Shown here piece by piece: positions 9,043 to 20,087 of a stretch of 64,000 bases of DNA. Origin of the DNA: Massilia aquatica (GTDB lineage: Bacteria > Pseudomonadota > Gammaproteobacteria > Burkholderiales > Burkholderiaceae_D); the NCBI RefSeq assembly GCF_011682045.1, contig NZ_VVIW01000006.1:248001-312000 (forward strand). Direction: 5' to 3'. Position numbers and translations under genes: made by a program. A model generated the notes under the pieces. The model searched no databases. It saw nothing but the letters and a program-made list of their open reading frames with translations, and was not told the origin of the DNA. How positions within the stretch are numbered: the stretch's first letter is position 1; every line of letters begins with the position of its first letter.

Positions 9043-10200
9043 TCAGCTCGGGTCGGGCTCCACGTGCACCACCGGCGCGGGCTCTTTGGGCTTGCGTTTG
9101 AAGCGCGCGGCGAGGCCGGCGAACATGCCTGTTTTGGCCGCTGCGGGCGGGTCGGCAGGTACGGCGGCCTCGGTAGCGAGCGCGGCCTTGCGCTTGCGCC
9201 GGCGCAGCAGGAACCAGACGGCCAGCGCGGTCACGAGGGTCGCGCCGACGGCGCCGGCGACCAGCATCCAGGGGAATGGCTCGCCTTTGCTGGCGGCGGC
9301 GTTCTTCTTGGCGAGGGCCGCGCGCGAGAGGATCGGCGGCGGCACCGCTGGCTCGGCCGCATGGCTGGCCGAGGCGGCGTCATGCCCGGTTGAAGCGGTG
9401 TCATGCCCGCTTGAGGCCGCTTCATGCCCGGCCGAGGCGGCAGCATGACTGGCGGAAGCTGCGGCATGACTTGCGGCGGCACCCTTGCCTTCGATGGCGC
9501 GTTGCAGCAGTTTGACCTTTTCTTCGAGCTCCACAATCCGGGCGGACAGCACGCCATTCTTGCGGTCGAGGTCGGCGCACGTCTTGATCTGGTCCTCACT
9601 GATCTGGGGACAGGATGCCGGCGCCGCCGACGGCAGTTGCAAGACCCGCACCGGGCGCGGCGCTGGCGCTGGCACTGGCGCGGCTACCCTGGCCGGCTCG
9701 GCGCGCACGGGGGCGGCAGGCAAGGCCGCCGGCACCGGGACCGGGACCGCAACCGGTGGCGGTGGCGGCGGCGGTGGCGCCGGCTGCGGATCGTGGCTCA
9801 GCCACAAGGTCACCGCGCGCACTTCGCGCTTGCCGCCTTCACCGAGCGTGAGAAACAGGTGCACGTAATCGCCCTCGACCGGCTTGACCGAGGTGATGTG
9901 CAGAAACTGGCGGCCGTCGCGCCGCATCACCGACATGGACAGGTTCGACAGCACCGGATGCATGCGCACATTGGCGCCGCGCCACACATCGGGATCGGCC
10001 AGCCGCACCTGCACGCTGGCTGCGGGCTCGGCCAGCGAGGTCAGTTCCACATCGGCCACCAGTGGCTGCCCGATGTACGAGCGCACCTGGGCATCGCCCA
10101 GCTCGGCCGCGTCGGCATTGGCAAGCGCGACCGCCAGCAGCAGAGAGAACATCAGGGTAGTGACGGACCGGACCAGCCGGACGATTCGGGAATGGTGCAT
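9043..10200 (-). CDS. FimV/HubP-like protein
   Basis: A 385-residue membrane protein with a signal or anchor segment (about residues 11-31, ends ANADAA). An N-terminal FimV-type domain follows (about 32-145; GQPLVADVELTSLAEPAAS and DVWRGANVRMHPVLSNLSMS). Then come a proline-rich linker, a coiled-coil-like stretch (LDRKNGVLSARIVELEEKVK), a repeat of alternating A, S and H, a transmembrane helix (about 316-335) and a basic tail. FimV relatives bind peptidoglycan and organise the pole for pili and flagella. It lacks the long TPR-rich acidic half of full FimV (usually over 800 residues), so it is a short relative. It stands alone. Confidence 0.75.
   Translation of the reverse strand: MHHSRIVRLVRSVTTLMFSLLLAVALANADAAELGDAQVRSYIGQPLVADVELTSLAEPAASVQVRLADPDVWRGANVRMHPVLSNLSMSVMRRDGRQFLHITSVKPVEGDYVHLFLTLGEGGKREVRAVTLWLSHDPQPAPPPPPPPPVAVPVPVPAALPAAPVRAEPARVAAPVPAPAPRPVRVLQLPSAAPASCPQISEDQIKTCADLDRKNGVLSARIVELEEKVKLLQRAIEGKGAAASHAAASASHAAASAGHEAASSGHDTASTGHDAASASHAAEPAVPPPILSRAALAKKNAAASKGEPFPWMLVAGAVGATLVTALAVWFLLRRRKRKAALATEAAVPADPPAAAKTGMFAGLAARFKRKPKEPAPVVHVEPDPS
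9358..9480 (-). repeat. Degenerate 21-bp tandem repeat in the FimV-like gene
   Basis: About six units of roughly 21 bp encode heptads of the pattern H-x-A-A-S-A/T-S/G between the coiled coil and the transmembrane helix. The units are imperfect, so the array looks old, but its in-frame length could vary between strains. Confidence 0.6.
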
Positions 10201-10316
10201 ATATGGTAATGTTGTCCAGCTAATGACGGAGGAGCAGAGAAATCTGTAGCCCTGCCGTAATTAACGTACGCTGAGATAAACTCTTTAACCGCATTCCCAA
10301 ATAAACAGGAAGCAAC

Positions 10317-11708
10317 ATGGAAACAAGAATCGAAAAGGACAGTTTTGGCCCGATCGCGGTCCCGGCCGGACGCTTGTGGGGCGCGCAGACGCAGCGCTCG
10401 CTGGAGCACTTCGCCATTTCGAGCGAGCGCATGGCGCCCGAGCTGGTGGCCGCGCTGGCCCAGGTCAAGCGCGCCGCCGCCGCCGTCAACCGCTCGCTCG
10501 GCCTGCTGCCGGCCGACAAGGCCGAAGCCATCGTCAAGGCTGCCGATGAGGTGCTCGACGGCAAACATCCGGATGAATTCCCGCTGGTGGTGTGGCAGAC
10601 CGGTTCTGGCACGCAGAGCAATATGAACATGAACGAGGTGCTGGCCAACCGCGCTTCCGAGCTGATCGGCGGCGCGCGCGGCGAAGGCCGCCTGCTGCAT
10701 CCGAACGACCATGTCAACCTGGGCCAGTCGTCCAACGATATTTTCCCGACCGCCATGCACGTGGCGGCGGCCCAGGCCGTGGTGCAGTCGCTGCTGCCGG
10801 CCCTGGCGCGCCTGCGCGGCACGCTGGAAATCAAGTCGCGCGAGTTCGCCGACATCGTCAAGATCGGCCGCACCCACTTGCAGGATGCGACTCCGCTCAC
10901 GCTCGGGCAGGAATTCTCGGGTTATGTGGCCCAGCTGGAATACTCCGAGCATGCGATCAAGTCCACCCTGCCCGGCCTGCTGCATCTGGCCGCCGGCGGC
11001 ACGGCGGTCGGCACCGGCCTGAACGCGCACCCGGATTTTGCGGGGCGCATCGCGGCCGAAATCGGTTCGCGCACGGCGATCAGCTTCAAGACTGCGCCCA
11101 ACAAGTTCGCGGCCCTGGCCGGGCACGATGCGCTGGTCGGCACCCATGGCGCCCTGAAAACCCTGGCCACGGCCCTGATGAAGATCGCCAACGATGTGCG
11201 CTGGATGGCGTCCGGCCCGCGCTCGGGCCTGGGCGAAATCAGCATTCCCGAAAACGAGCCGGGCAGCTCGATCATGCCGGGCAAGGTCAATCCGACCCAG
11301 TGCGAAGCGCTGACCATGCTGTGCTGCCAGGTGTTCGGCAACGATGTCGCCATTACCATGGGCGGCGCGTCGGGCAACTTCGAGCTGAACGTGTTCAAGC
11401 CGATGATCGCGCATAATTTCTTGCAAAGCGCGCGCCTGCTGGCCGACGGCATGCGTTCCTTTAACGATCATTGCGCGCACGGCATCGAGCCGAACCGCGA
11501 GCGCATCGGCGAACTGATGGAGCGCTCGCTGATGCTGGTGACGGCCCTGGCGCCGCACATCGGCTACGACCGCGCAGCCCAGATCGCCAAGAAGGCGCAG
11601 CACGAGGGCACCACCCTCAAGCAGGCGGCGCTGGCGCTCGGATTTGTGACGGAACAACAGTTCGAAGAGTGGATCGTGCCGCTCGACATGACCCGGCCAG
11701 GCCTGTAA
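10317..11708 (+). CDS. fumC: Class II fumarate hydratase
   Basis: Fumarase C of 463 residues, the usual length, converting fumarate and water to L-malate in the TCA cycle. It carries the lyase signature [11 protein letters not shown] starting at residue 316, with S318 at the position of the catalytic serine in E. coli Fum[14 protein letters not shown] and the histidine region [16 protein letters not shown] are also present. AGGAAG precedes the ATG. The enzyme is iron-free and oxidant-resistant by family knowledge. The gene is single, divergent from the FimV-like gene and followed at 115 nt by the S4 gene. Confidence 0.97.
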
Positions 11709-11822
11709 GGCCGCGACAAGGCGCAACGCCGCAGGGCACGGCGCGACGCGCGGGCAACGTTGACGCGCCGCGCCGATGCCGCCACACTGCGGTTCTTACA
11801 TCTATTTTAGGACGAGCGGTAA

Positions 11823-12056
11823 ATGCAGAAAGTCACTTTTGACCTCACAGGCGAGTTCGTCGAACTGAACCAGCTATTGAAACTGTCGGGTCTGTGCGAC
11901 AGCGGCGGCGCGGGCAAGAACCTGGTTGCCACGGGCGTGGTATCGGTCGATGGCAAAAAGGAGTTGCGCAAGACCGCCAAGATCCGCGACGGCCAGGTAG
12001 TCGGCATCGGCGACGTGCGCATCAGCGTGCGCAGCACCGGAGCGGACGGCGCCTGA
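11823..12056 (+). CDS. S4-domain RNA-binding protein (YbcJ-like)
   Basis: A 77-residue protein that is essentially one S4 RNA-binding domain. LNQLLKLSGLCDSGGAGKNL leads into the GVVSVDGKKELRKTAKIRDG loop characteristic of the YbcJ/RlbA family. Members bind RNA and are linked to ribosome-related functions, but the substrate is not settled. It is close downstream of fumC and may be read from it or from its own promoter. Confidence 0.85.
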   Translation: MQKVTFDLTGEFVELNQLLKLSGLCDSGGAGKNLVATGVVSVDGKKELRKTAKIRDGQVVGIGDVRISVRSTGADGA

Positions 12057-12214
12057 TTGCGCCAGCGCAGGATAAACACCTTGCAATCGGGCAATATTAG
12101 AAATATGCTGAGTGAAGCCGGCAGCGGCGCGGGTGTTCTTGCGCGGCGACAAACACGAAATTCCATGCTTTGTATATATTCTAAGACGTGATTAACCGAT
12201 TCAAGGTGGCCACC

Positions 12215-12499
12215 ATGGATAACCCTGAAGAAAACCAGCAAACCCAGGAACGATTGATCGGCGACCTGCGGCTCGTGATCGAAAACGCGGAAGAATTGCT
12301 GAAGAACACGGACCAGTACACCAGCGTGTTATACCGCAGTGCCCGCGCCAAGCTGGCGCTGGCGCTTAACGCGGCCACCGAAGAACTGGCCCGCTTCGAG
12401 GACGAGCAACTCGGACGCATGATCGAAGCGACCAGGACCGCCAACGCCGAGAACGCCGATCTGTCCGGCGAAGCGCGCATCATGCGCGCGTTTCATTAA
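12215..12499 (+). CDS. DUF883 (ElaB/YqjD-like) protein without the usual membrane anchor
   Basis: A 94-residue acidic helical protein with the block LIGDLRLVIENAEELLKNTD that typifies the DUF883 N-terminal half. E. coli relatives are ribosome-associated inner-membrane proteins with a C-terminal transmembrane segment. That segment is absent here, so the protein should be soluble. The ATG at 12215 is preserved behind AAGGTGG; an upstream in-frame GTG at 12188 has no ribosome site. It converges on the LRR gene at 12566. Confidence 0.7.
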   Translation: MDNPEENQQTQERLIGDLRLVIENAEELLKNTDQYTSVLYRSARAKLALALNAATEELARFEDEQLGRMIEATRTANAENADLSGEARIMRAFH

Positions 12500-12565
12500 C
12501 CACGCCAGCGGCGCCTCCCCCGCGCGCCGCTGCTTCCGCCCTCGCCCGCGCCGTTCTCCGGGCTG

Positions 12566-13510
12566 CTACAAATACCCGTTTTTCCATCCATCGAACAAAT
12601 TCTGCATGTGATCGAGCAGCCAGGTACTGCCCTTTTTCATGAGCACGAAGCGGCTTTGCAAGTGGCCGAGATGGATGGTGTACACGCATACCTTGCGCGC
12701 CGACAGCCATTCGACGTCGATGATACTGTGCTGTTCGTAGGTGGGCGGGATGCCGAAGCTGCCCGCCTCGGCTTGTCCCGAGGCGCTGTGCCTGGGCGTG
12801 CAGAATTGCGCGAACACGGCGGCCCGGAGCGCCGGGCGCCAGTCGCTGAGGTGCCGGTCCACACTCTGGTCGAGTGCGAGCTGGGTTTCCCAGGCGCTGA
12901 TGCCATCCCAGAAGCCTTGCAGGGCCGCCAGCGCGGCCGCCTGCTCGCCCGCGCCGGGCATAAAACCGGGCGGGGTGCGGCTGGCCAGGCGGCGCTGCTC
13001 GCGCACGAAATCCCCGTCCAGCCCGGCTGGGTGGATGTCATCCGAATGTAAGGTGAGGGTCGGGTGGGCCGCCAGCGCCAGCACGCCATCGCGCGTGACT
13101 GCACTGCCCGTCACATCCAGGTACGACAAGGAGGCCAGGCCGACGATGTGCGGTACGCTGGCGTCGCCCACCTGGGTCGAGCGAAGGGACAAATGGTGCA
13201 ATCTGGCGTGGCCGGACAAGGCAGCCACGCCAGCGTCGCTGATGCCGGTGTTGTCCAGCACCAGCCAGTTCAGGGCGCGAACACGGGCGATATCGGGCAG
13301 CACGGCGTCGCTGATGGCGCTGCCGCCCAGCCACAGGCGTTCCAGCTTCGGCAGCGCGCACAGGGCGCGCACGGCGTCATCGCCAATGCCGCAGCCGGTA
13401 AAGGTCAGGCCGCGGATCGAGGGCTTGCTGAGCAACAAGGCAATGTCGGCGGCGCCGAGCGCGCGGTCATGGATGTCGAGAAACCTGGGCCGTGCGGGAA
13501 GTTCAAGCAT
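12566..13510 (-). CDS. Leucine-rich repeat protein with C-terminal NTF2-like domain
   Basis: A 314-residue cytosolic protein without signal peptide. Residues about 30-155 form five or six LRRs of the GALA/RNI kind (LERLWLGGSAISDAVLPDIA, LNWLVLDNTGISDAGVAALS). The final 120 residues (about 190-314) have the look of an NTF2-like immunity fold (HSIIDVEWLSARKVCVYTIH, WLLDHMQNLFDGWKNGYL). It follows the 173-residue gene by 9 nt and is surely co-transcribed with it. Proteins of this build are found as immunity or accessory proteins of polymorphic toxins, but no toxin is visible here, so the role is unknown. Confidence 0.65.
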   Translation of the reverse strand: MLELPARPRFLDIHDRALGAADIALLLSKPSIRGLTFTGCGIGDDAVRALCALPKLERLWLGGSAISDAVLPDIARVRALNWLVLDNTGISDAGVAALSGHARLHHLSLRSTQVGDASVPHIVGLASLSYLDVTGSAVTRDGVLALAAHPTLTLHSDDIHPAGLDGDFVREQRRLASRTPPGFMPGAGEQAAALAALQGFWDGISAWETQLALDQSVDRHLSDWRPALRAAVFAQFCTPRHSASGQAEAGSFGIPPTYEQHSIIDVEWLSARKVCVYTIHLGHLQSRFVLMKKGSTWLLDHMQNLFDGWKNGYL

Positions 13511-13519
13511 GGCTCGTGC

Positions 13520-14041
13520 TCAGGCGTTGGCGATCGCGGAGCTGCGCTCCTGCTCCCAGGCTTCCTGCCAGGTAATCGCGCCCGGCTTCTCGAACCATTG
13601 CTGGAGGTAATCGGCGATCTCGGCCGCTTCGGGCATGGGCGAGGCCGACAGGTAGGCCATGGTGGCGTCCAGGCCGGCGCCGACGAAATACTCGGCGCCG
13701 AGCGAGGTCCCCACATCCATGTTGATGTGCTTGGCTTTCCACAGCAGCAAGGTGTCGGCCACGTCGCCGGCGCGGTACAGCAGGAAGGCGCACTGGTAGA
13801 TGCCTTCGTAGTAATCCATCTCGTCCTGCACGATGTGGTCCCAGAGGGCCGTGCGCAGGTTGATTTCTTCGTCGAGCAGCTCGATCAGCAGCGCGCGGTA
13901 CGGCGCCAGGGTCGCGCCGACCAGTTGCTTGTAGATCGCCCGCCTCAGTTCCGGCGCGAGCAGCGCGCTTGCGATTGCGGGAGAAACAGCATTGCCATTG
14001 CTCTGGTACTCGGCGATAACTTGATCAGCGCTCATTGACAT
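13520..14041 (-). CDS. Conserved hypothetical protein, partner of the LRR/NTF2-like protein
   Basis: I do not recognise this 173-residue protein. It is soluble, acidic and mostly helical, with a central block LLDEEINLRTALWDHIVQDE followed by YYEGIYQCAFLLYRAGD and LLWKAKHINMDVGTSLGAEY. The composition resembles immunity proteins that sit in arrays beside polymorphic toxins. It is the first gene of a two-gene unit with the LRR protein. The start at 14041 has two alternative ATGs within three codons. Confidence 0.6.
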   Translation of the reverse strand: MSMSADQVIAEYQSNGNAVSPAIASALLAPELRRAIYKQLVGATLAPYRALLIELLDEEINLRTALWDHIVQDEMDYYEGIYQCAFLLYRAGDVADTLLLWKAKHINMDVGTSLGAEYFVGAGLDATMAYLSASPMPEAAEIADYLQQWFEKPGAITWQEAWEQERSSAIANA

Positions 14042-14169
14042 GAATGAAATCGATTTAAAGGATGATTATAGCGTGAGTAAAACGCGCCCCTTTTGCACCA
14101 GAGCCAGACCCGGAAAAAATGGCGTGATTCCGCACAGAAATACTGACAGGCTGCGACGGGCGCAAACGG

Positions 14170-15840
14170 TCAGTCTTGCCCCGCAGGCGCCAGCAAGATG
14201 CCCAGTGCAATCCACTGCGCCAGATGCGCCCCGATGTCGAATTGCTCATCGAGGGCGAATGCGGCATCGAGCGCTTCGCCCATTGTATCTCCCCCGGCCA
14301 GCGCGGCGAGCGCGCCTGCGTGCGCGGGGGTGAGCGCGACCAGTTCGGTCTTCCAGCGCGGGCGGGCGACCAGGGCTGCGCTCGGGCAATCCATGGCCGG
14401 CGGGAAGCCGACGCCGCTGTCCGGCTGGTGTGCTTGCCACAGGGGCACCACCGCCCAGCCTGATGCGATCAGGCTGCAGGCCGGATGCAGGGCGTAGCGC
14501 GCGTTTTGGAAGGCGTCGGGCGTGAGGGAGGCCAGCGCATCGGCGCCGATGGGGTCGGCGTCAGGGGCGTAATGGGCGCGGTGCACGGCCCACTCCAGAC
14601 GCGCCATGTCGGGCAGGTACGGATACTCGGCGATGTGGGGAAAGCCGTCGAGAAAGCGGGCAAAACTGCCCCCGAAGCGGTTCAGGTCGGCGTCAAGCGA
14701 GGGATGGGCCATGCCGTAGGCGCGTGCCAGCGCACCGAAAAATGCGTCGCCAACCAGCTGGCGCAGCACCGGACAAGCCGCCGACAAGGCCTTGTTCCAG
14801 GTCACGCCAAGGTTGCCCCGGTACAGGCCGAAGCGGTCGGCATTGGCGCCGCCCTTGAACTGCGCCAGGGCATCGGCTTCACTGCCGTAGTCGAACAGGG
14901 CTTGCGCGAAACGCTGCTGGGTAGCGGCCAGGACGCCCTCGCCCGGCGCTTGCGGGTGGCGGCCGCGCCAGGGGTTGGCGACATTGATCACCGGGTAAGC
15001 CGCAGCGATGTGCTGCGCCTTGCGCGCTTCGCCCAGCAGCACCTCGAGCGCGGGCACATCGGTATCCCATTCGATCAGGGTCGGCAGGCGGCCGAAGCGC
15101 GCCAGCGCCGCCTGGTACAGGGCCCAGACCGGCGCGGCCACCACGTCGCCATGATGGTCGACTACCGCCTGCGGCGTGACCAGATGGCCGGCCAGGTGGA
15201 TTTCGCCGACGCTGCCGGGCGCAATGGCCGCAATCGCCGCCAGCGCGTCTTCGCCGTGGTTGCACTGGTTGACGTAGAGATTGTTTACATCCAGCAGCAA
15301 GGCGCAGCCGGTGCGGCTGGCCAGCTCGGCCATGAACTCGGCTTCGCTCATCGTATCGTCGTTAAAACGCACGTAGGTGGAGACATTTTCCAGCAAAATG
15401 CGGCGCTGCAGCCGCTCTTGCACTTGCTCGACCCGCTGGCACAGCAGGTCGAGCGCGGCGCCGCTGAGCGGCATCGGCAACAAATCGTTGAGCTGGCGGT
15501 CGGCGACGGCGCCCCAGCACAGGTGTTCGGACACGAGCATGGGCTCGACCCGCTCGACCAGCGCGCAGACACGATCCAGGTGAGCCGTTGAAAACCCGCG
15601 CGCCGAGCCCAGGCCGAGACCGACGCCATGCAGGCTGATGGGATAATCGCGGCGCAGTTCTTGCAGCACATGCCAGTCCCAGCCAGCGCGATCGAGAAAG
15701 TTTTCGGTGTGGACTTCGAGCCAGCCGATGGCGGGCCTTTGCTCGAGAAACTGGCGGTAATGGGGCGCGCGCAAGCCGACGCCGGCGCCCGGCGAGGCGG
15801 GACCGGCAACAGTGTCGACCGGTAAGGCCCCGCCCGTCAT
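14170..15840 (-). CDS. Fused MNIO oxidase (DUF692, BufB) and DUF2063 partner (BufC)
   Basis: A 556-residue protein joining two enzymes that are usually separate. Residues about 19-285 are a DUF692 multinuclear non-heme iron oxidase TIM barrel with the family motifs LEVHTENF (41-48), [11 protein letters not shown] (69-79), SEHLCW (104-109), LLENVSTYV (149-157), [15 protein letters not shown] (182-196), EIHLAGH (213-219), DHHGD (228-232) and IEWDTD (256-261). Residues about 305-420 are a DUF2063 domain ([40 protein letters not shown]). By family knowledge the pair oxidises cysteines of bufferins to sulfur heterocycles. It begins 13 nt after the precursor gene. A poorly conserved C-terminal tail follows to 556. 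Confidence 0.9.
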
Positions 15841-15853
15841 GACTTACTTGAAC

Positions 15854-16132
15854 TTACTTGCCGGACAGCTTGCCGCCGGCCTTTTCGCAGGTGCCCTTGG
15901 CGACCCATTTCCACTCTTCCGGCGCTTTGTCGACCGTCGATGCGCCGGCGCAGCCGTGCGAACCGGTCGCGCTGGCGCAATCGTTCTGGCCAGCCTTGGC
16001 GATGCCGTAGCACTTCTCCTTGTCGGACTTGTCGCCCTTGGACATGGGCGCATCATGCGCGGCGGCCATGCCGGAGGACACTGCGCACACGCCAGCGAGG
16101 GCGGCGGCGATCAGGGCTTGACGTTTGTTCAT
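15854..16132 (-). CDS. Bufferin-type RiPP precursor (DUF2282)
   Basis: A 92-residue exported precursor. The signal peptide (about 1-25) ends GMAAA. The mature part has four cysteines at 41, 52, 61 and 82 in the DUF2282 pattern ([40 protein letters not shown]). Bufferins are periplasmic copper-binding peptides whose core cysteines are oxidised by an MNIO enzyme; the enzyme is the next gene. The frame extends upstream, but the ATG at 16132 has AAGGAG eight nt before it and gives the signal peptide. No DoxX, ECF sigma or anti-sigma gene, often seen with such operons, is present. Confidence 0.9.
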
Positions 16133-16267
16133 CGTAAATCTCCTTGAATTTATTTGAAGTGAAACAGGAACTGCCAGCTTGAAGGCGATTGTAAAGCCAG
16201 CCACGCGATTGCCAGGCGTGCCTTTCAGTTCCTTACAACTTCCCCGTGCCAGCGCCAATTTTAACGT

Positions 16268-16307
16268 AAAAAAGCCCGGTTCCTCCTTGAATGGGAGGAC
16301 ACCGGGC
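16268..16307 (-). terminator. Rho-independent terminator after the YjfB-like gene
   Basis: On the minus strand GCCCGGTGTCCTCC pairs with GGAGGAACCGGGC and is followed by six T residues. It separates the YjfB-like gene from the bufferin operon, so the latter needs its own promoter in 16133-16268. Confidence 0.8.
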
Positions 16308-16333
16308 GATGCAGGCATCGTTGAGCGATGGAA

Positions 16334-16525
16334 TCAGGCAGTCGTATTGATCGTATTGCCCAGATTGGCCGGCAAGCGCTGCGGCTGCGGCAGCGCGCTG
16401 ATCAGCTGGGCAGCAACCTGGCCTTCCATCTGTTGCGCTTTCTTCAACACGGCGTAGCCGACTTCCTGCTTGACGCCCGTTTCGGCCATGCTGGTGGCCA
16501 GTGATGCAATTGATGAAACGTCCAT
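16334..16525 (-). CDS. YjfB-like putative motility protein
   Basis: A 63-residue protein matching the YjfB motility family. It starts MDVSSIASLATSMAETGVKQ and continues with a helix VLKKAQQMEGQVAAQLISAL. The family is defined by association with flagellar regulons; its molecular role is not known. GGGAGAG precedes the ATG. A sigma-28-type promoter lies about 35 nt upstream, which supports a late flagellar class. The long frame extending upstream overlaps mobB and is not used. Confidence 0.8.
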   Translation of the reverse strand: MDVSSIASLATSMAETGVKQEVGYAVLKKAQQMEGQVAAQLISALPQPQRLPANLGNTINTTA

Positions 16526-16559
16526 GAGAGCTCTCCCGTTTGATTGGCTATCACGGATG

Positions 16560-16586
16560 GTAACGACGCCGTTTGCCCGAACTTTA
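16560..16586 (-). promoter_or_regulatory. sigma-28 (FliA)-type promoter for the YjfB-like gene
   Basis: On the minus strand TAAAGTTC (16586-16579), an 11-nt spacer, then GTCGTTAC (16567-16560). The -35 is identical to that of the FliT-like gene and the spacing is exact; the -10 matches 5 of 8. It overlaps the last bases of mobB. Confidence 0.55.
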
Positions 16587-17099
16587 GGCCGGGAGCGAAT
16601 TAATTCTGGCCTTGAGCCATGCCAGCACGGTTGCCGGGGCATTCAGGTCGAGCCAGGCCACGTTATCGGGAAGATCATCCGGGGGCGGCGCATCCGATGC
16701 CACGGCGACAATATGCGGATCATTCGGGTACAGCGGCGGATGACCGAGCGACGGGCGCTGCACCTCCAGCTTGGGAATGGCTTCCCATTTGTAGCCTTCG
16801 ACCAGGGTCAGGTCGGCCGGGTCCAGCCGCGCCAACTGCTCGCCCAGGGTCGGTTCCGGCTCGCCGCGCAGCTCGCGAATGATGGCCACGCGGAAAGGCG
16901 AAGCGATCATCACCTGCGCCGCCCCGGCCGTGCGCAGGCGCGCGCTGTCCTTGTGGGGCGGTTCGAGCATCACATCGTGATGGCTGTGCTTGACGACATT
17001 GATGCGCAGGCCGTCGGCCGCCAGTTGGCCGACCAGCGTTTCCAGCAAGGTCGTCTTGCCGCTGCCGGACCAGCCGATCACACCGAGTAAGTTGTGCAT
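16584..17099 (-). CDS. mobB: Molybdopterin-guanine dinucleotide biosynthesis adaptor MobB
   Basis: A 171-residue P-loop GTPase-like protein with Walker [11 protein letters not shown] at residues 9-18, then [20 protein letters not shown], the MobB signature region, and [17 protein letters not shown]. It assists MobA in attaching GMP to molybdopterin, a cofactor of DMSO-reductase-family enzymes. The ATG at 17099 follows AAAGG; an in-frame ATG at 17132 would add eleven residues before the P-loop domain and is less likely. No other moa/mob gene lies nearby. Confidence 0.92.
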
Positions 17100-17152
17100 G
17101 CGCGGCCTTTCCGCCGAGAAGTAAGAGGGCAATTATACAAAGGTCGCGGTCA

Positions 17153-17890
17153 TCAATACGGATGGCGGTAGCGCTGGCCCTTGTAACTCATCACGGCGGA
17201 CTTGGGCAGCAGTTTTTCCAGGACCAGGCCGGGGGCCACTTCGTCGCCTTCGCGGCGCAAGACTTTATCGATGAGCAACAGGCGGTCGGCCGGATTCCTG
17301 GAATAGATGTAGCCGCCGACCGCGATCGGCGGAATCTCGTGCTGTAGCGCATCCGGCAGCTCGCGCAGGGTGCGCAAATTCTCTTCCGCAGAAGGAACCG
17401 GCTTGTCGGCCTTGACCGTGTCGGTCCTGGCCGGCTCGTCTTTTTTGAGCGGCGCCGCCTTCTTCACCGGCTCTTCCTTCTTCACCGGCTCTTCCTTCTT
17501 CACCGGCTCTTCCTTCTTCACCGGCTGGGGCTTGACCTCGGCCACCTTGACCGGTTCTGGCTTGGGCGGAGGCGCAACTTCCACCACTGGCGCCGGCTGC
17601 GGAGCAGGTGGAGGCAACGGCGCAGGCACAGCCGGCGCGGTAGCCGGCACGGTAGCCGACGCAGCCGCCTGCACCACCGGCGCCGGCGGCGTTGCCGTCT
17701 GCTTCCAGGCATACACGGCAGCCCCGGTGGCGCCCAATGCCAGCAGCGCCAGTGCGATCACGACCGGTTTGCCGCCAGCGCCTGTCCGCTCCGGCTCGGC
17801 GGCATGGATCGGCGTGGCGTGGATGGTCGGGGCGTTGCCGAGCTGGCGTTCGGCCTGCGCCTTTTTAAGTGCTTCGAGAATATAGGACAT
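17153..17890 (-). CDS. gspB: General secretion pathway protein GspB-like
   Basis: A 245-residue bitopic protein. It starts MSYILEALKKAQAERQLGN, the amphipathic segment of GspB/ExeB proteins, then a transmembrane helix (about 44-61). A long proline/lysine linker follows, then the C-terminal T2SSB domain (IPPIAVGGYIYSRNPADRLL, YKGQRYRHPY). With the GspA ATPase it remodels peptidoglycan and places the type II secretin. The gene starts one nt after the gspA stop (TAAGATG), so the two are coupled. No core gsp genes are in the window. Confidence 0.85.
   Translation of the reverse strand: MSYILEALKKAQAERQLGNAPTIHATPIHAAEPERTGAGGKPVVIALALLALGATGAAVYAWKQTATPPAPVVQAAASATVPATAPAVPAPLPPPAPQPAPVVEVAPPPKPEPVKVAEVKPQPVKKEEPVKKEEPVKKEEPVKKAAPLKKDEPARTDTVKADKPVPSAEENLRTLRELPDALQHEIPPIAVGGYIYSRNPADRLLLIDKVLRREGDEVAPGLVLEKLLPKSAVMSYKGQRYRHPY
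17460..17526 (-). repeat. 18-bp tandem repeat in gspB
   Basis: Three exact copies plus a partial copy of an 18-bp unit encode PVKKEE hexapeptides in the periplasmic linker. Exact identity suggests recent slippage, and copy number may differ between strains. Confidence 0.8.
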
Positions 17891-17891
17891 C

Positions 17892-19520
17892 TTATGGTTT
17901 CCCCGTTGCGCCAGCCGCCAGCAAGCGCGGTTCGGCCACGCCGGTCAACTGGTTCAGGCGCATATAGGTGCGCGGACCGGCTACGCCGTCCGCCTTGAGG
18001 TTTTGACGGGCCTGGAATGCGCGCAGCAGTTCCAATGTCGGCGCGCCCAGCGGACGGTCCGCCGGCGGCGGGGCCAGCCCGTTGACCTTGGCCAGGCGCG
18101 AGGCGATCCAGTCGACATCGGCGCCCTGCTCGCCCGCGCTGACCTGGTCGCGGAAATAGCGCGGCATGGTCCAGAAGGTCACGAAGCTGCCGTCCGAACG
18201 GGTGGCGAGCGCGCCGAGGTCGAGCGTCTGCTCCTTGCCGTCGACGTTCAGGCGCACGCTGCTCTCGTCCATGCCGGTCAGCAACGCGTAGCTCACCACC
18301 GGTCCGTCGCGCAAGGTCAGTACGGCCGGACGGTCGAGCAGACGCAATTCGTATAACCCGCCCTTGCCCTGATGGCAGCGCAGGTTCAGTTTCAGCGCAT
18401 CGTCGCAGGTGGCGCCGGCGGGCAAGGCCACGCCCCACAGCGCCGACAAGGCGTGCAGCGCAGCCGCTTCGCTGGCGTGCGTGAGCGGCACGGCCGGCGC
18501 GCGCGCCACCGGCGCCACCGGGGCCGGCGAGGCAACAGCGGCCACGGCCTTGACCGGGGCCGGCGCTGGCGCAGCCTGCACCAGCACCGGCTTGGTGGCA
18601 GGACGAAATTGCCACGCCGCCGCCGCGCCGATCGCAGCGGTGGCCAGCACGCCGGCCGCCACATACTGCCACGGCATCCGGGACGCGGGCGCATTGGCGC
18701 CGCCCGAAAACACTTCGCTGCCGGCGCGGCGCAGGATCTGGCGCGTCACTTCGCGGCTGTTTTCGACATACGCCCCCAGCAGCGCGCGGTCGCACAACAG
18801 GTTGATGCGGCGCGGCACGCCCTGCGACAACTGGAACACCTGTCCCATCAGCGAGCGCGGAAACGGCCGCGACGCCCCGCCCCCGGCCACCGCCAGCCGG
18901 TGCGCGACGTAGCTGGCGGTTTCCGCTTCGGTGAGCGAACCGAGGTGATAGCGCGCAATCACACGCTGGGCCAACTGTTCGAGTTCGGGCCGGGCCAGGA
19001 TCGCGCGCAGCTCCGGCTGGCCGATCAGGATAATCTGCAACAGCTTGCGCTCGCTCGTTTCCAGGTTGGTCAGCAGGCGCAATTGCTCCAGCACATCGGC
19101 CGACAGGTTCTGGGCCTCGTCGATGATCAGCACATTGTTCTTGCCCTGCGCGTGACTGAGCAACAGGTAGCGGTTGATCGCGTCCACATAGCTCTTGACG
19201 CTGACCGCGCCGGCCGGCGCCGGCGGCAGGTCGATGCGGAATTCATCGCAGATCGACAGCAGCAGTTCCTCGACCGTGAGCTTGGGATTGAAGATGTAGG
19301 CCAGGCGGCAGCCCGGGGGAATCTGCTCAATGAAGCAGCGGCACACGGTGGTCTTGCCCGCGCCGATTTCGCCGGTCAGCAGCACGAAGCCGCCGCCGCT
19401 GCCCACGCCGTACAGCAAGTGCGCCAGCGCCTCGCGGTGGCGCTCGCTCATGAACAGGTAACGGGGATCGGGGGCGATGGAAAACGGTGATTGCTTCAGG
19501 CTGAAGAATTGCTTGTACAT
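17892..19520 (-). CDS. gspA: GspA/ExeA-type AAA ATPase
   Basis: A 542-residue AAA ATPase with Walker A GEIGAGKT at 50-57 and Walker B VLIIDEAQN (D134, E135). A transmembrane helix at about 284-303 follows, then a periplasmic C-terminal part ending in a peptidoglycan-binding domain (about 480-525, KADGVAGPRTYMRLNQLTG). By analogy with ExeAB of Aeromonas it opens the cell wall for secretin assembly. It is translationally coupled to gspB. The 179-residue cysteine protein gene is upstream at 27 nt. Confidence 0.9.
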   Translation of the reverse strand: MYKQFFSLKQSPFSIAPDPRYLFMSERHREALAHLLYGVGSGGGFVLLTGEIGAGKTTVCRCFIEQIPPGCRLAYIFNPKLTVEELLLSICDEFRIDLPPAPAGAVSVKSYVDAINRYLLLSHAQGKNNVLIIDEAQNLSADVLEQLRLLTNLETSERKLLQIILIGQPELRAILARPELEQLAQRVIARYHLGSLTEAETASYVAHRLAVAGGGASRPFPRSLMGQVFQLSQGVPRRINLLCDRALLGAYVENSREVTRQILRRAGSEVFSGGANAPASRMPWQYVAAGVLATAAIGAAAAWQFRPATKPVLVQAAPAPAPVKAVAAVASPAPVAPVARAPAVPLTHASEAAALHALSALWGVALPAGATCDDALKLNLRCHQGKGGLYELRLLDRPAVLTLRDGPVVSYALLTGMDESSVRLNVDGKEQTLDLGALATRSDGSFVTFWTMPRYFRDQVSAGEQGADVDWIASRLAKVNGLAPPPADRPLGAPTLELLRAFQARQNLKADGVAGPRTYMRLNQLTGVAEPRLLAAGATGKP

Positions 19521-19547
19521 GGATTCCCTGGAAGTGCATCACCCGCG

Positions 19548-20087
19548 CTAGCGGCCGACGGGCAGCGGCTTGTATTTGGCGCAGTAAATCTTGGACTTGG
19601 TCTTGAAGTAGACGATCTTGCTGCCGGGATTGGACGCGCGCACCGGATAGCGCGAGTTGTCCACCGACAGGTGGCGCACGCCGACGGCGTTGCGGATCGA
19701 CTCTTCGAGCTTGTCGGGCGTGGTATCGGCCACGGCGGCCACGAACACCAGTTCGCTGGTATCGTCGCTGATCATGATGTCGGTCACCGGCGCGCCCCAC
19801 AGGGTGCCCTCGGCCTTGAACCAGTAGGCGCCGCCCTCGTGCTTGTAGGACGGGCCGAAGGCGTTGACCAGGTAATCGTGGAAGTAAGCGTTATCGAGCC
19901 CGCTGCGGCACAGGATGGCGCTGCCGATCACGGGGCCGAAGGTGGACGGTGCGGCCTGCACTGCCGGCGGCGCGGCGGCGGCCAGTGCCAGCAGAGTCAG
20001 CAGTATCACGGCGCAGCTTCGCCCGGGCAGTGCGCGCAAGCGGGCTGCACCAGGTGAAACCTGCTTCGATCCGATCGCCAGGCGCAT
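19548..20087 (-). CDS. Exported hypothetical protein upstream of gspA
   Basis: I do not recognise this 179-residue protein. A long N-region precedes a signal peptide (about 25-45, ends AVQA). The mature part has two cysteines (AILCRSGLDNAYF and SKIYCAKYKPL), which could form a disulfide, and a mixed alpha/beta pattern. Its position first in the gspA-gspB transcript suggests a role at the envelope, but this is inference only. Confidence 0.65.
   Translation of the reverse strand: MRLAIGSKQVSPGAARLRALPGRSCAVILLTLLALAAAAPPAVQAAPSTFGPVIGSAILCRSGLDNAYFHDYLVNAFGPSYKHEGGAYWFKAEGTLWGAPVTDIMISDDTSELVFVAAVADTTPDKLEESIRNAVGVRHLSVDNSRYPVRASNPGSKIVYFKTKSKIYCAKYKPLPVGR

Follow-up and report, generated by a model that had tools for sequence, protein, structure and literature searches.

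Does the bufferin locus of Massilia aquatica really encode the modifying enzyme and its partner protein as a single polypeptide, and if so, is this a peculiarity of one strain or an established architecture? The question is raised by two adjacent minus-strand genes in the window, i.e. the whole stretch of 64,000 nucleotides from contig NZ_VVIW01000006.1 that was analysed. It is of practical interest as well, since work on MNIO enzymes is hampered by their dependence on a partner with which they may associate poorly: the HvfB-HvfC pair of Haemophilus influenzae, for instance, forms only partly and was fused by hand (PMC13419390). We find that the Massilia fusion is a true, conserved and recurrent variant of the bufferin system, with a function that is predicted from its relatives. 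We put the probability that the locus encodes a bufferin-1 RiPP system in which BufB and BufC form one polypeptide, acting by the mechanism proposed below, at about 85%. Much of the evidence comes from a contig scan with the fusion as query, which confirmed 155 relatives, the best 80 of which were kept, a selection that favours full-length fusions.

The upstream gene, bufA (15854..16132, minus strand, start ATG at 16132), encodes a DUF2282 (bufferin-1) precursor of 92 amino acids (PF10048, E 7.2e-23). The initial annotation had described this product as a DUF2282 precursor with a signal peptide and four cysteines, which is borne out: residues 1-25 (16058..16132, minus strand) form a Sec signal peptide, whose cleavage site was judged by eye, and four cysteines are found in the mature part in addition to a fifth one inside the signal peptide. 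BufA thus combines the three features of a Buf1 precursor, namely the DUF2282 domain, the Sec signal peptide as judged by eye and the four mature cysteines, and its score with the NCBIfam BufA2 model NF050166 (23.7 bits) stays below the cut-off of 60, which places it with Buf1 and not with Buf2. All four mature cysteines are fully conserved in 80 BufA sequences, comprising that of the window and those of 79 of the 80 relatives, the remaining one having been dropped because the script could not locate its start. All 80 relatives kept (best 80 of 155) have a DUF2282-like ORF upstream of the fusion and in the same orientation, and bufA is the only PF10048 match across the whole Massilia genome. 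The stop of bufA and the start of the next gene, bufBC, are 13 nt apart in the minus-strand ORF list, so that the Buf1 cluster order A-B-C is kept as bufA followed by fused B-C. The signal-peptide cysteine, C16, is conserved in 98% of the 80 fused-clade sequences; it is shared by L102 and L103, two split relatives that are close by, but not by L104-L118, and is not accompanied by a canonical lipobox as judged by eye.

The bufBC gene (14170..15840, minus strand) encodes a protein of 556 residues, an MNIO maturase fused to a PME1 partner, with PF05114 and PF09836 in one ORF. The Pfam profile search confirms the proposed domain order, DUF692 (residues 18-279) and then DUF2063 (residues 307-397). 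The MNIO (DUF692/BufB) catalytic domain (15004..15789, minus strand) matches PF05114 with an E value of 4.8e-99 and 331 bits as compared to a cut-off of 25, and the NCBIfam BufB model NF050167 scores above its cut-off too (357 versus 310 bits). The conserved metal-site and catalytic residues of the BufB class are present in the fusion: H71, H106, E151, N152, D184, N187, H215, D228, H230, E257 and D259 are invariant in all homologues compared, 98 fused and 62 split, and N186 is kept in all 98 fused and in 60 of the 62 split ones. Foldseek matches the MNIO half to 3BWW, to TglHI chain B and to MbnB. Via the alignment with 3BWW, which is 72.4% identical to HvfB (PMC13419390), and with numbering by hand, N186, D228 and H230 align to N175, D242 and H244 of HvfB, and exchange of these residues abolished the activity of HvfBC (PMC13419390). 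An AlphaFold2 model of the Massilia protein generated from 55 sequences has a mean pLDDT of 90.4 and a pTM of 0.87; the pLDDT drops below 80 only in blocks at the N-terminus, at residues 281-300 and at the very end of the chain. The second of these blocks corresponds to the interdomain linker (residues about 280-300, 14941..15003, minus strand), with pLDDT values of 77 for residues 281-290 and 64 for residues 291-300. Linker length varies from 10 to 73 residues with a median of 25 across 55 fusions, that of the window and those of 54 relatives, and there is little sequence conservation in this region.

The initial annotation had made its reading depend on a DUF2063 domain in the C-terminal half, and such a domain was found at residues 307-397 (14650..14922, minus strand; PF09836, E 1.1e-18, 67.7 bits as compared to a cut-off of 27.2). 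It had also regarded the C-terminal 130 residues as unexplained, which does not hold. The usual MNIO partner is composed of DUF2063 and an RRE-type domain, of 250-260 residues in total (PMC12452194), and residues about 456-546 of the fusion (14203..14475, minus strand) are modelled as just such an RRE-type fold, with three strands (456-460, 487-492 and 499-503) followed by three helices (505-515, 520-530 and 536-546). The same order of strands and helices is given for RiPP recognition elements in PMC12710340; the model adds a short helix at 464-470 that separates the first strand from the second. Residues 300-556 folded alone give a pLDDT of 93.5. A search of the PDB with the C-terminal half returned 37 structural matches, of which only 8hci_A, 8hi7_A and 3dee had E values of 0.001 or less. 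These are known MNIO partners, 8HCI and 8HI7 being entries of TglHI, with chain A taken as TglI by elimination as chain B matches the MNIO half, and 3DEE being NGO1945. The agreement in structure is loose (TM 0.55-0.68, rmsd 4.9-8.2), and the RRE assignment rests on the fold because a sequence profile of the C-terminal half found no PDB chain. The NCBIfam HvfC model NF050145 scores 28.8 bits as compared to a cut-off of 142; this model defines HvfC, whereas our claim is for PME1, which here is not a separate protein of about 250-260 residues but residues about 300-556 of the fusion. Since its last 130 residues are modelled as the RRE domain beside DUF2063, the fusion is predicted to carry the entire partner and hence to be a complete BufB plus BufC. 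Taken together, there is good support at the level of sequence for a bufferin system whose enzyme and partner form one protein.

Does the partner then work in cis? The initial annotation had taken the fusion itself to show that it can, which is better put as a deduction with two supports, the single DUF2063 match in the genome and the working engineered HvfBC fusion. A profile search of the genome in full, 7.47 Mb with a completeness rating of 100%, found one DUF2063 match, the one in the fusion, and no second DUF2063 partner, although partners without the DUF2063 signature, which do exist (PMC12452194), would escape such a search. Because there is no other DUF2063 match, the partner probably works in cis. 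The same genome encodes a second, divergent MNIO in a frame of 597 amino acids (L002:979-2772, around G000 C5:7741-8355). Its C-terminal region matches DUF2063 below threshold (E 0.024) and is given a probability of 4% by hhalign against the partner profile, and the protein is possibly another type of enzyme-partner fusion. A short ORF (1080-1340), which contains the stretch CPACTSGFDIRYD and ends near the likely start of this second MNIO, could encode its substrate.

The fusion is not peculiar to the Massilia strain; the architecture is widespread in Oxalobacteraceae and recurs elsewhere. Both halves are found in a single ORF in 80 of the 80 relatives kept (best 80 of 155), which by their record titles belong mostly to Massilia, Duganella, Janthinobacterium, Rugamonas, Pseudoduganella, Herminiimonas and other Oxalobacteraceae, together with a few MAGs assigned by title to Burkholderiales or Betaproteobacteria. 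A typical Oxalobacteraceae-type fusion is also found in a MAG with the title Bifidobacterium breve (L066); because this groups with those of Oxalobacteraceae in the tree, the MAG is probably mislabelled or a contaminated bin. The frequency of DUF692-DUF2063 fusions, which the initial annotation had proposed to survey, was determined in a GTDB family sample of 145 genomes, 86 of which have a match: the two domains are fused in 44 of the 86, in many genera. As read from the table, these 44 comprise 38 with one full-length match, four with two matches in one frame and two cut at contig ends, and in three of the 44 a stop was counted in the match. Nine of them besides the window, chosen as divergent, two-piece or cut (L084-L086 and L088-L093), were opened as ORFs and all nine contain both domains. 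Split pairs fetched from the same family represent ten genus codes. Outside the family, single-ORF fusions were verified in at least nine genomes (L095-L098 from the order sample; L125, L126 and L129-L131 from the class sample), L095 having a weak PME match of 30 bits. A DUF2282-like gene lies beside four of these nine, and none is present in the fetched stretch of L095-L098 and L129. The fusion is therefore not confined to bufferin-1 systems.

A number of apparent fusions were rejected on inspection. The full-length match of G472 proved to be split on opening, as did the long frames of L094, L099-L101 and L137-L143; L133 is split with a gap, and L087, L124, L127, L128, L132, L134-L136 and L150 are split genes in which the frame continues across one stop. 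Among the matches listed, false fusions accounted for five of ten non-own full-length matches in the class sample and for four of five in the phylum sample. The bufC frame continues right after a single bufB stop in 9 of 62 split pairs, and as judged from their sequences a point mutation or stop read-through would fuse these nine.

The fusion arose more than once, as the trees reject a common origin of all fusions sampled. A quick tree with 39 fused and 62 split sequences, 101 in total and including 22 of the 80 relatives, needs at least nine changes between the fused and the split state, four of which are forced by well-supported branches, and one clade for all 39 fused rows is rejected with a p value of 4e-42 (L092 and L093, which are cut at contig ends, were left out of the trees). 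A careful tree of 45 rows from the family likewise rejects one clade for all 29 fused rows (p 8e-7) and is compatible with a single origin of the 26 Oxalobacteraceae-type ones (p 0.14), one clade of these together with L084 and L085 being borderline (p 0.068). The Oxalobacteraceae-type fusions group with the split L103 inside (support 94/89 in the careful and 64 in the quick tree), the inner 22 fused rows of the group having a support of 100/99. L103 branches with the fused L074 (100/90) and is a probable reversal from fused to split. ORFs similar to mobB and yjfB are found in 75 of the 80 relatives' loci, those of L032, for which the upstream sequence extends over only 518 nt, L048, L066, L073 and L074 being the exceptions, and also at six loci with split pairs (L104, L106, L109-L111 and L114). 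The fused gene thus occupies the place of the split pair of its relatives, which speaks for vertical descent and fusion in place.

How would the fused enzyme recognise its substrate? The mean frequency of the top residue in the 80 BufA sequences is 95% for residues 1-13, 54% for residues 14-26 and 80% for residues 39-92. When residues 1-13 of BufA and of TolB from the same 11 genomes are set side by side, mean identity is 79% for BufA and 37% for TolB (52% with gaps allowed), a comparison between signal peptides and not mature parts, with TolB as the single control protein and with the stretch 1-13 picked after its conservation had been seen. Without gaps, identity is higher for BufA than for TolB in 51 of 51 pairs, 4 of 55 pairs with near-identical TolB having been set aside. 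HvfA lacking its signal sequence is poorly modified (PMC13419390), and by analogy the BufA signal peptide likely doubles as leader.

The Massilia locus had been called minimal. No DoxX, sigma or anti-sigma gene was detected by Pfam among the six neighbours, in agreement with the initial annotation, and no DoxX in positions 10001-20000 of the window; the one DoxX of this genome is located on another contig, and NrsF was not found in this genome (G000) or in six relatives' genomes. In 32 of the 80 relatives a DoxX-like ORF is located 3' of the fusion in the same orientation, with its frame starting within about 250 nt, and such an ORF is also present in 43 of 62 split loci and in 4 of 18 other fused loci. 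For each of the 48 relatives without DoxX, 1.9-5.0 kb of downstream sequence was covered. Since 32 of the 80 relatives have DoxX behind the fusion but neither the window nor its closest relatives (L003-L005 and L035) do, its absence is most likely a loss. Thus, the locus is minimal in that no accessory genes are seen there, but this simplicity is best understood as a derived state.

The region upstream of bufA contains a motif, TGTAAGG-N16-TGGCAA (16209..16237, minus strand), which resembles ECF sigma promoters by its sequence and differs from the relatives in its -10 half, TGGCAA instead of CGAC[T/A]A. First noticed in an alignment of 11 upstream regions and then counted, TGTAAGG occurs no more than 300 nt upstream of bufA in 36 of 80 loci as compared to 31 of 4000 stretches drawn at random from these loci, and is mostly followed by CGAC[T/A]A after 16 nt. 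The longer motif is found in 28 of the 32 loci with DoxX and in 4 of the 48 without (Fisher p 3e-13, kinship uncorrected). Six of seven relatives' genomes each have a single exact copy of the motif, identical in its letters to the copies upstream of bufA, and the seventh has a 15-nt spacer; this genome (G000) contains no exact copy, and a reversed control pattern gave one match in eight genomes. The motif resembles the GTAACC-N16-CGAA of Caulobacter sigma-F (PMC3511200). We infer that TGTAAGG-N16 marks an ECF-type promoter, which may be served by a sigma factor encoded elsewhere in the genome; in the window this promoter may be decaying. Further upstream, an inverted repeat, GCCCGGT...ACCGGGC, followed by a T run (16268..16307, minus strand) is seen in 6 of 10 aligned relatives and probably terminates transcription of the yjfB-like gene that lies upstream. 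It was not reported by a simple scan for promoters and terminators, which was uninformative.

From the observed architecture, conservation, catalytic residues and partner fold and from the absence of another DUF2063 match, and with chemistry, leader role, copper and export taken over from characterised relatives, we propose the following mechanism. The RRE half of the fusion would bind BufA in the cytoplasm via the signal peptide as leader, and the DUF2063-RRE half would keep the iron enzyme active. Using its two-iron centre, the MNIO half would then oxidise cysteines of BufA, most likely the two central ones, to 5-thiooxazoles. Modified BufA would subsequently be exported by Sec and buffer copper, and perhaps other metals, in the periplasm; the central cysteines as targets, the thiooxazoles and the role of copper are described for bufferins in PMC12452194. 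The fusion itself would fix a 1:1 stoichiometry through a flexible tether. On a further proposal we consider the odds to be even: that selection has favoured the joining of an MNIO to its complete partner as a recurrent design, evolved more than once and widespread in Oxalobacteraceae, in which a permanently activated enzyme is docked on a near-invariant signal-peptide leader (the first 13 residues) and modifies the bufferin before Sec export. If true, this would make the fusion the natural counterpart of engineered HvfBC and a one-chain system for structures of signal-peptide leader recognition.

But could the two halves have been joined by mere accident? The fusion might be fortuitous and neutral, a tether without effect on activity that was fixed by drift after loss of a stop or of the frame. 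A linker that varies between 10 and 73 residues and is little conserved is what one would expect in this case, as is the probable reversal in the split L103 next to the fused L074 (100/90), and the single in-frame stop that parts 9 of 62 split pairs makes fusion an easy step. Then again, drift would not readily account for a fusion that is kept in 44 of 86 family genomes with a match and in many genera and that arose more than once, nor for the markedly higher productivity of an engineered fusion of a related pair, and we regard it as a possible but rather doubtful origin. An even more trivial accident, an error of sequencing or assembly that removed a stop between two genes, was considered by the initial annotation and can be excluded with near certainty, because the same unbroken frame is carried by all 80 relatives kept, from many separate genome records; moreover, residues are conserved on both sides of the junction.

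Other objections concern function. Pfam describes DUF2063 as a domain that putatively binds DNA, 3DEE entered the PDB as a transcription regulator and the abstract of PMC2954202 points in the same direction, so that the C-terminal half might be seen as a DNA-binding regulator rather than as a substrate-binding partner. However, the structures that it matches best are the partner chains of the TglHI holoenzyme, more recent work counts NGO1945 among the typical MNIO partners (PMC12452194) and HvfC is required for the activity of HvfB (PMC13419390). With MNIO partners as its structural matches, we have rejected the regulator as a highly improbable reading. Less far-fetched, yet in our view still unlikely, is that the product is no copper buffer, the peptide being left unmodified or serving in the response to another metal or stress. 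The lack of DoxX in the window and its closest relatives and the altered ECF-like motif of the window suggest that regulation may have changed, and bufferin loci are among the gold-induced genes of other bacteria (PMC12452194), but the full conservation of the catalytic residues and of all four mature cysteines argues for a modified bufferin, as proposed in our mechanism.

The one-chain bufferin system can be compared with several known systems. The Buf1 operon bufABC of Caulobacter vibrioides has the same components in the same order, that is a DUF2282 precursor with signal peptide, an MNIO and a DUF2063-RRE partner. In the Buf1 locus of the Burkholderia glumae plasmid NZ_CP100235.1 the enzyme and partner genes are separate, overlap by 17 nt and are followed by DoxX, whereas Massilia has one gene and no DoxX. 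Closest in design is the engineered HvfBC of the HvfABC oxazolin system of H. influenzae, in which, as in the Massilia fusion, the C-terminus of the MNIO is joined to the N-terminus of PME1 at 1:1 and which shares its essential residues. It differs in that it is man-made, acts on an EGKCG-type substrate and is derived from naturally separate HvfB and HvfC (PMC13419390). This fusion gave markedly more product than the coexpressed pair (PMC13419390). MovX from Vibrio and ChrH, the exceptions among the partner-dependent MNIOs, are like the Massilia protein single-chain MNIOs with an extra domain, which is an RRE or winged-helix domain in MovX and a domain of unknown function in ChrH; neither is described in the available text of PMC13419390 as a DUF2063-RRE fusion acting on a DUF2282 substrate. 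The MNIO-nitroreductase of the adjamnio-III clusters (PMC12452194) is a natural MNIO fusion as well, but to another enzyme and not to a partner. Finally, TglHI from Pseudomonas syringae (8HCI, 8HI7) resembles the fusion with its chain B in the MNIO half and with its chain A in the partner half, yet it is a heterodimer with a different substrate and chemistry.

We found no report of a natural MNIO-DUF2063 fusion in the texts searched, including PMC12452194, PMC12668002, PMC13174530, PMC12710340 and PMC13419390; domain databases may well list the architecture. PMC12452194 also describes fusions of bufferins themselves with MerC, cytochrome and EF-hand domains. In that work partners were sought among the proteins following the MNIO gene, and surveys of this kind probably miss natural fusions, because there the partner is not in the next gene. 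A natural one-chain MNIO family that is present in many species provides material for structures with the signal-peptide leader and can be used for testing how modification precedes export.

Downstream of bufBC the minus strand carries two further ORFs (12566-13510 and 13520-14041), a pair that among the 80 relatives' loci is found only in the four closest. The protein encoded at 12566-13510 combines leucine-rich repeats and an immunity domain of the NTF2 type (PF15655, E 4.9e-9), and that at 13520-14041 has 173 amino acids and no Pfam match; possibly, the pair (12566-14041) represents immunity genes of a polymorphic toxin.
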